This document shows positions 8,920 through 16,754 of a stretch of 33,687 nt of DNA, in pieces. Under the pieces are notes generated by a model. That model did no database searches. It was given only the letters and a program-made list of their open reading frames with translations, and had not been told where the DNA came from. This DNA is from Betaproteobacteria bacterium. Lineage in GTDB: Bacteria > Pseudomonadota > Gammaproteobacteria > Burkholderiales > SG8-39. The translations under genes were made by a program, and so were the position numbers. The stretch is from the NCBI GenBank assembly GCA_947476535.1, contig CANJRC010000031.1, forward strand, positions 1 to 33,687, written 5' to 3'. Each line of letters opens with the position of its first letter. Within the stretch, counting starts at the first letter, position 1.

Positions 8920-10074
8920 ATGAGCCGGTTCTTCCGCGCACTCTCCGTTCTCGCAGCTCCCGCGCTCGCCGCACTCCTCCTGCTCCCTCAATCGTCGTTC
9001 GCGGCCGAAGTGCCCGCGCCACCGGTCATCACGGCCCGCGCATGGCTCCTGATGGACGCCAGTTCCGGCCAGGTTCTGCAAAGTCAGGCGCCAGACGAGC
9101 GTGCCGAACCGGCATCGCTCACCAAGCTGATGACGGCGTACATCGTCTTTGGCGCCTTGCGCGACCGCAAGATCAGCCCGGAACAGGGTGTATCGGTGTC
9201 CGAACGCGCCTTGCGCGCCGACGGCTCGCGCATGTTCATCGAGTCGAAGAAGCCGGTGAACGTCGAGGAGTTGGTGCGCGGCATGATCATCCAGTCGGGC
9301 AACGATGCCTGCATTGCCCTGTCCGAAGCTGTCTCGGGATCGGAGGACGTTTTCGTCCAGCTCATGAACCGCGAGGCCCAGCGCCTGGGCATGAAGAACA
9401 CCAGCTTTCGCAACTCCACCGGTCTTCCGGATCCGCAACACTACTCGACGGCACGCGACCTGGCGATCCTGGCGTCGTCCCTGATTCGCGATTTCCCCGA
9501 CCAATACAAGTATTACTCGATGCGCGAATACCGCTACAACAACATCACGCAGCAGAACCGCAACCGGCTGCTGTGGCTGGACCCGACGGTGGACGGCATG
9601 AAGACCGGCTACACCGAGAATGCCGGCTATTGCATCGTTGCCTCCGCACGCCGGGGGCAGCGGCGCATGATCTCCGTGGTGCTCGGCACGGCGTCGGATG
9701 CGGCGCGCGCCCAGGAAGCGCAGAAACTCCTCAACTTCGGCTTCCAGATCTATGACGGCGTGCGCGTCTACGAAAAGAACGCCACGGTGAGCACACTGAA
9801 AGTCTGGAAAGGCAGCCCCTCCGAGCTGAAGGCCGTGGTGGCCAATGACCTGGTGGTCTCGGTACCGGCGGGGGCCGGCGACAGGATCAAGGCCGAATTC
9901 GTCGGACAAGAGCCACTGATCGCCCCGGTGTCCGGCGGCCAGCGGGTCGGGATCGTCAAAGTGCTCCTGGATGGCAAGTCCATCGCGGAGTATCCTGTGG
10001 TGGCACAGAAAAATGTTGGCGTCGCCGGATTTTTTGGCCGCATGTGGGACACCCTGCGGCTGTGGTTCAAATAA
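8920..10074 (+). CDS. dacC: Serine-type D-Ala-D-Ala carboxypeptidase (PBP5/6 family)
   Basis: A 384-residue class C low-molecular-weight PBP that trims the terminal D-alanine from wall pentapeptides in the periplasm. A cleavable signal peptide ends near SSFAA (about residue 29). All three catalytic motifs are present: SLTK with nucleophile Ser66, SGN at 126-128, and KTG at 228-230. The C-terminal part has the PBP5 beta domain, and the final residues form a likely amphipathic membrane anchor (RMWDTLRLWFK). The gene could equally be called dacA. In many Betaproteobacteria a D-amino-acid aminotransferase gene lies between this gene and the DUF493 gene; here it is missing. Confidence 0.95.
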   Translation: MSRFFRALSVLAAPALAALLLLPQSSFAAEVPAPPVITARAWLLMDASSGQVLQSQAPDERAEPASLTKLMTAYIVFGALRDRKISPEQGVSVSERALRADGSRMFIESKKPVNVEELVRGMIIQSGNDACIALSEAVSGSEDVFVQLMNREAQRLGMKNTSFRNSTGLPDPQHYSTARDLAILASSLIRDFPDQYKYYSMREYRYNNITQQNRNRLLWLDPTVDGMKTGYTENAGYCIVASARRGQRRMISVVLGTASDAARAQEAQKLLNFGFQIYDGVRVYEKNATVSTLKVWKGSPSELKAVVANDLVVSVPAGAGDRIKAEFVGQEPLIAPVSGGQRVGIVKVLLDGKSIAEYPVVAQKNVGVAGFFGRMWDTLRLWFK

Positions 10075-10148
10075 GAACCGGATGCAAAATAAAATTTTTG
10101 CGTCCCCCGGGGTAGGCGAGTATGAGGGAAGCATCCCCTCATATTGCA
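10075..10148 (+). repeat. Structured ~75-nt intergenic repeat, copy 1
   Basis: This begins immediately after the dacC stop and ends 60 nt before the DUF493 start. It has two hairpins: an A/T-rich one (GCAAAA at 10084-10089 pairing TTTTGC at 10096-10101) and a perfect 8-bp one (TATGAGGG at 10121-10128 pairing CCCTCATA at 10136-10143). A closely related element of the same length and orientation lies at 16638-16712. Its role is unknown; it could be an untranslated RNA element, an attenuator or a small dispersed palindromic repeat. Confidence 0.7.
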
Positions 10149-10208
10149 ACAGCCCCTAAAAGTGTGAAACAACGGCGCTGCAACAGCATCCCGACGATGA
10201 GGCCGACC

Positions 10209-10484: not shown

Positions 10485-10551
10485 GCTGCGCGCCAAACGG
10501 CAATTCTGTTAGACGCTCTAAAAACACCTGTCGCATTTTTGCCGCAACCTC

Positions 10552-13862: not shown

Positions 13863-13947
13863 TCAGGCCATCGCCATCGCCCCGATCGACCTTTGGAGAG
13901 CCTAACAATGCCAGGGAACACATCCCCGCGCACTTCGCTAAATCAGG

Positions 13948-13974
13948 GCGCCTAATGCCAATTCTGGCAGGCGC
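13948..13974 (-). terminator. Bulged hairpin after the dioxygenase gene, possible terminator
   Basis: GCGCC and TGCCA (13948-13952, 13956-13960) pair with TGGCA and GGCGC (13965-13974), giving a 10-bp stem with a 3-nt bulge and a 4-nt loop. It lies 26 nt downstream of the dioxygenase stop on the - strand. The T-run after it is short, so termination would be weak; an operator role is also possible. Confidence 0.45.
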
Positions 13975-13999
13975 TCTACCCTAACTCTCTTTGGAACTT

Positions 14000-16416: not shown

Positions 16417-16637
16417 GACCCATTTTCATGTTGCGCGTAGCCAGCAGGGTTTGCAAGGACTACTTGTCGTGCGCCATTTTGTCACGATCAACGCGCCGAT
16501 TTTCAAGGTCGGCATGAATCCTGGGATCAGCAGACACTCACATGCAGGTGGAGTGCCGGTAGGACAACACGTAAAATGCAGTCCGTCGTCGCTTGGCCGT
16601 GGAGCCCGCGCCCGATAGAAGCCGACGGTCGCAATAG

Positions 16638-16712
16638 GAGCCGGTTGCGAAATGAATTTTTTGCAACCTCTGAAGTAGAGGAGCATGAGGGGACGCACTC
16701 CCTCATTTTGCA
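16638..16712 (+). repeat. Structured ~75-nt intergenic repeat, copy 2
   Basis: This is the counterpart of 10075-10148 with the same order of parts and the same orientation. Hairpins are TTGCGAAA (16645-16652) with 16659-16666, CCTCT/AGAGG (16667-16671 and 16677-16681), and ATGAGGG (16685-16691) with CCCTCAT (16700-16706). Several base differences from copy 1 keep the stems paired. It ends 42 nt before the iclR start. Confidence 0.7.
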
Positions 16713-16754
16713 GTCCATTCCAAGAACCACCTGTCGAAGGACCGATCGAGAGAC

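Follow-up and report, generated by a model that had tools for sequence, protein, structure and literature searches.

Bacterial MITEs (e.g., Correia/NEMIS, RUP, ERIC), for which TA is listed at most termini, have been reviewed as a class (PMC2229807), and it is to this class that the repeat described here bears the closest general likeness: it is shorter than 200 bp, protein-free, bounded by terminal inverted repeats and a target duplication, mainly intergenic, rich in stable hairpins and variable in copy number. It departs from the class by its 3-bp TNA duplication, by several short hairpins in place of one long stem, and by having a conserved interior between variable ends. Among insertion sequences, ISLrh (IS5 family, IS1031 subgroup) prefers TNA, produces a 3-bp repeat and has an end starting with GAACCTG (PMC12016507); our element shares the TNA target, the 3-bp duplication and the GAACC ends with this subgroup, but carries no transposase gene, and a matching insertion sequence was not found in the genomes searched. 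The Bordetella repeat BRE (PMC3110155) is similar in length (about 90 bp), mainly intergenic placement, occasional tandem arrangement, betaproteobacterial host and variable copy number; judged by its description it differs in composition and range, its reported G+C content being 63.7-78.9%, whereas our copies mostly have 43-57% and are nearly confined to one family. GTAG REPs and REPtrons (PMC3733652) are also dispersed and intergenic, with GTAG near a hairpin, but differ from the element in its inverted-repeat ends, its TNA duplication and the lack of RAYT association.

The analysed stretch of DNA (33,687 nucleotides; hereafter the window) belongs to a 4.12-Mb genome assembly (G000; relatives are denoted G001, G002, G005 and so forth). 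The first-pass annotation had reported a structured element occurring twice, at 10075-10148 and 16638-16712. Both segments exist, on the plus strand and with their parts in the same order, and were correctly located, although the element is slightly longer than given and the count was incomplete. Copy 1 (type A, plus strand, 10072-10159; 87.1 bits with covariance model R1) has its body at 10075-10156, between a left TAA (10072-10074), with which the upstream D-Ala-D-Ala carboxypeptidase gene terminates, and a right TAA (10157-10159). Its first hairpin, H1, occupies 10080-10105 (arms GGATGCAAAA...TTTTGCGTCC) and the hairpin H3 10122-10142 (arms ATGAGGG...CCCTCAT). Copy 2 (type A, plus strand, 16635-16723; 84.5 bits with R1) has its body at 16638-16720, H1 at 16643-16668 and H3 at 16685-16706, and its flanking triplets (TAG/CAA) would, from their sequence, be a decayed target duplication whose left/right match is gone. 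To these the window adds a diverged type C copy on the minus strand (copy 3, 13892-13978; arms GCGCCTGCCAG...GGCATTAGGCGC, tail TTGTTAGG; 20.8 bits, E 8e-4 in the window search with R1), with a glyoxalase-like gene on one side and a TauD-like gene on the other, and a remnant of another type C copy that retains H1 only (minus strand, near 10488-10522) between the DUF493 and LipB-like genes, which occurs in the relative G005 too. The neighbours of the window copies (D-Ala-D-Ala carboxypeptidase, DUF493, LipB-like, LipA-like, IclR, glyoxalase-like and TauD-like) are unrelated.

From 70 fetched copies a common layout was derived, [TNA]-GARNC-H1-linker/H2-TAGGGGAG-H3-ATTG-tail ending CTC-[TNA], with a non-coding body of about 82-85 bp. 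The linker that follows H1 is short and often folds as a small hairpin (H2), while H3 has the sequence GAGGGGA..TCCCCTC. Both H3 and the TAGGGGAG core are conserved, the core also across genera, and the H1 arms vary. Among the 58 better copies of G000, 32 have H1 of type A (GGTTGCAAAAT...ATTTTGCAACC), 19 of type B (GGCCATTTC...GAAATGGCC) and 7 of type C (GCGCCTAAC...GTTAGGCGC); other genera add further arms (e.g., GGTGCAACGAC, CCACTCGC, GGCGATGAC, GTTCCGG), with palindromy kept. About ten unrelated H1 arm sequences were seen, palindromic in most copies, and in 81 of 110 copies H1 palindromy exceeded that of all 20 shuffles. The unusual point of the family is this combination of a conserved interior with a first hairpin whose sequence changes entirely and which yet stays palindromic. 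The CCTAAC/GTTAGG arms of subfamily C resemble an integron attC site, an identity rejected on inspection as the other subfamilies lack them.

The first-pass annotation had observed that H1 stays paired despite changes on both sides, and this holds (GGATGC/GCGTCC in copy 1, GGTTGC/GCAACC in copy 2), an A-T pair of the stem having become T-A. Across the collected copies the H1 arms covary (17.6 vs 12.0 in shuffled pairings, sd 0.57, 0 of 5000), also within subtypes; in a plain alignment test, the initial set of 21 copies (almost exclusively type A) showed only weak covariation, as their low diversity would lead one to expect. Left end and tail together make up a pair of imperfect terminal inverted repeats, each left end matching its own tail better than shuffled ones (14.4 vs 12.1, sd 0.44, 0 of 5000), with a covariation that lies between subfamilies and is not significant within them. 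Compared with dinucleotide shuffles, the two plus-strand window copies fold more stably both as RNA (z -3.9 for copy 1, -2.0 for copy 2) and as DNA (z -3.4 and -2.4, respectively).

Stable hairpins with covarying arms, in copies close to genes, are also what would be expected of a cis-acting RNA (an attenuator, a riboswitch-like leader or an RNA-processing site) selected at each locus. We regard such a role as very unlikely. Selection on RNA in place predicts conservation in place and an excess of G-U over A-C mismatches in one strand, and neither was seen: at six shared loci identity is lower within the element (0.66-0.90) than in its flanks (0.88-0.97), and G.T and A.C mismatches in the stems are equally frequent (16:16 in H3, 13:13 in H1, 29:29 in total). 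The structure is thus probably not kept locus by locus, and the mismatches give no sign of selection acting on a transcript. Further against an RNA role, the copies adjoin unrelated genes in tandem, convergent and divergent contexts, the element is missing at orthologous sites of relatives, and Rfam holds no matching family (window searched at the gathering score, eight loci at E <= 1), the one hit in these searches, to a microRNA model, lying outside the element and being put down to chance. An intrinsic terminator was likewise discarded on reading the sequence, as a T-run is absent after both H1 and H3. The earlier proposal of an attenuator or regulatory leader is therefore not upheld for copies that are mobile, diverge faster than their flanks, lie beside unrelated genes and show no strand bias in their mismatches; the structure would rather be kept at the level of the DNA or of an active parent element.

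Gene calls around the 70 copies, made with a home-made coding-potential gene finder, placed 65 of them between genes, in every gene orientation (tandem, convergent and divergent). The copies had also been described as standing before a start codon; they do lie near genes, but over the 70 copies a stop codon usually lies nearer than any start codon, and copy 1 itself begins exactly at a stop codon. Exactly on a stop codon sit 17 of the 70 copies, a placement explained by TAA and TGA being TNA sites and by the shortness of the intergenic gaps. Special targeting of stop codons was considered and rejected (10 observed vs 9.0-9.6 expected from TNA sites, among 30 testable intergenic copies).

The consensus insertion target is C-TNA-G. 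The middle base of the TNA is equal on the left and right in 45 of 70 copies (26 expected; 0 of 2000 shuffles), and when the two triplets are compared as an inverted repeat it is anti-correlated (8 vs 26 expected, same 70 copies). Being equal directly and anti-correlated in inverted comparison, this base is part of the target that was duplicated, not of the element's ends. Copies from other genomes show the same tendency (20 of 37 vs 13.3 expected; 81 of 5000 shuffles).

Comparison of 14 orthologous sites between G000 and G005 (about 1.2 Mb of the latter) revealed both shared and polymorphic insertions. Some of the sites carry the element in both genomes; copy 2 is absent from the matching G005 site (about 91% identical there), another site occupied in G000 (L044) is empty in G005, and at a third (L031) G005 carries two back-to-back elements (a tandem of A and C). 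The tandem at L223 (G005:C9, 12805-12975) consists of type A and type C joined by a common CTTAG junction, its G000 orthologue being A only. A half element made up of H3 and tail only was encountered in G000 (L106, G000:C2:25806-25900), the matching site in G005 being empty; either the halves may be mobile or the other half may have been deleted.

At the copy 1 locus, the insertion is shared by G000 and G005, falls on the same stop codon in both and has similar 3' halves, but H1 is of type A in G000 and of type B in G005; the element is absent from this locus in G001 and G002. The simplest reading of these sequences would be one insertion in which H1 was later exchanged, although this TAA might also have been hit twice independently. 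This swap, together with the roughly ten palindromic H1 sequences and the TAGGGGAG-H3 core conserved across genera, could suggest a mobile palindrome that is read by its hairpin shape and core, and not by its terminal sequence, with H1 interchangeable. We consider this unlikely: tail type follows H1 type in 44 of the 58 better copies, so the sequence of the ends has some influence; no such enzyme is known; and ordinary gene conversion could account for the H1 swaps.

We favour, as the likely explanation, a non-autonomous MITE-like element on which an IS5-family (IS1031 subgroup) DDE transposase acts in trans at C-TNA-G sites; that the mobiliser is probably of IS1031 type is suggested, by analogy, by the 3-bp TNA duplication and the GAACC ends. 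The transposase, supplied in trans, would insert the element into such sites; insertions between genes would survive selection, and those falling onto a TAA or TGA stop would rebuild it and leave the protein intact, because both codons are themselves TNA sites. Inserted copies would decay afterwards, and their H1 hairpins would sometimes be exchanged between copies, as in the one orthologous case seen. The family is short, multi-copy and non-coding, with terminal inverted repeats, target duplication and insertion polymorphism, which are properties of a MITE. Counting against a standard MITE, it is the ends that differ from one subfamily to another and the interior that is conserved, opposite to the usual pattern; against a DDE mobiliser speaks the fact that H1 is palindromic by itself, which such a transposase does not need; and the empty sites found were few and imperfect.

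The ends around the PF01609, PF13340 and PF05598 loci of G000 and its relatives, in fragmented draft assemblies that may lack copies of insertion sequences, were compared with those of the element and yielded no match; the IS5-type genes present in these genomes are broken or belong to insertion sequences with other ends. In G000, the IS5-type transposase genes at C3:42389-42961 (L153, L309) and at C117:1621-1791 (L304) are decayed, contain internal stops and showed no repeat-matching ends.

The GTAG that lies 5' of H3 in many copies recalls REP-type elements, in which a GTAG tag and a hairpin are mobilised by a RAYT (a Y1 tyrosine transposase). REPs are likewise short, dispersed, palindromic and mainly intergenic (PMC3733652), and some of the relatives do possess Y1 genes. 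Nonetheless, the copy-rich G000 and G001 have no PF01797 gene, nor do G002, G006 and G028; GTAG stands about 6 bases away from H3; and a TNA duplication with terminal inverted repeats is unexpected for Y1 transposition. Among the Y1 loci checked, no gene flanked by the element was found, and only one has the element nearby. There (L285, G027:C66, about 1998-2785) the TAA of a Y1-type (RAYT-like) gene is the target triplet of a one-sided, single copy lying exactly at the stop codon, as other insertions do. We thus view mobilisation by a RAYT as improbable.

With blastn, 20-21 matches to the element were recovered from the G000 assembly, whereas the covariance model (built from 21 copies, nearly all of type A) returned at least 80 at E <= 0.001 and at least 105 at E <= 0.1, counts that are lower bounds because 150 of 765 candidates were scored. 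The conserved structure and the dispersed palindromic repeat anticipated by the first-pass annotation, for which it had suggested a covariance-model search of the genome and its relatives, are well supported by the many further copies, with covarying arms, that this search returned in unrelated surroundings. Of the 61 genomes searched, 18 carry the element, every one of them from the same family as the window genome, and none is from the 24 other families; within the family, about half of the sampled genomes have it, and copy number ranges from 0 to 70+. A search across 300 genomes of the order recovered G000, one same-family genome and three marginal singletons. These lone model matches (L298, L299 and L300), each with E about 1e-4 and each from a further family within the order, are marginal and may represent chance or remote relatives. 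The exact core pattern, searched in 84,980 species, occurred in 18 contigs of uncultured Betaproteobacteria, Burkholderiales or Proteobacteria MAGs, and in two unrelated records (Paenibacillus and Bacteroidales) that are compatible with chance.

We conclude that this is a new family of MITE-like mobile element, of a kind already known: an undescribed but ordinary sort of genomic parasite, for which effects on individual neighbour genes are possible. Its recognition implies that repeated structured leaders in this uncultured betaproteobacterial lineage are mobile DNA, and guards against their annotation as riboswitches or attenuators. A family in which the hairpin sequence has turned over completely while palindromy was kept is moreover well suited to studying how palindromy is maintained in the palindromic repeats of bacteria.
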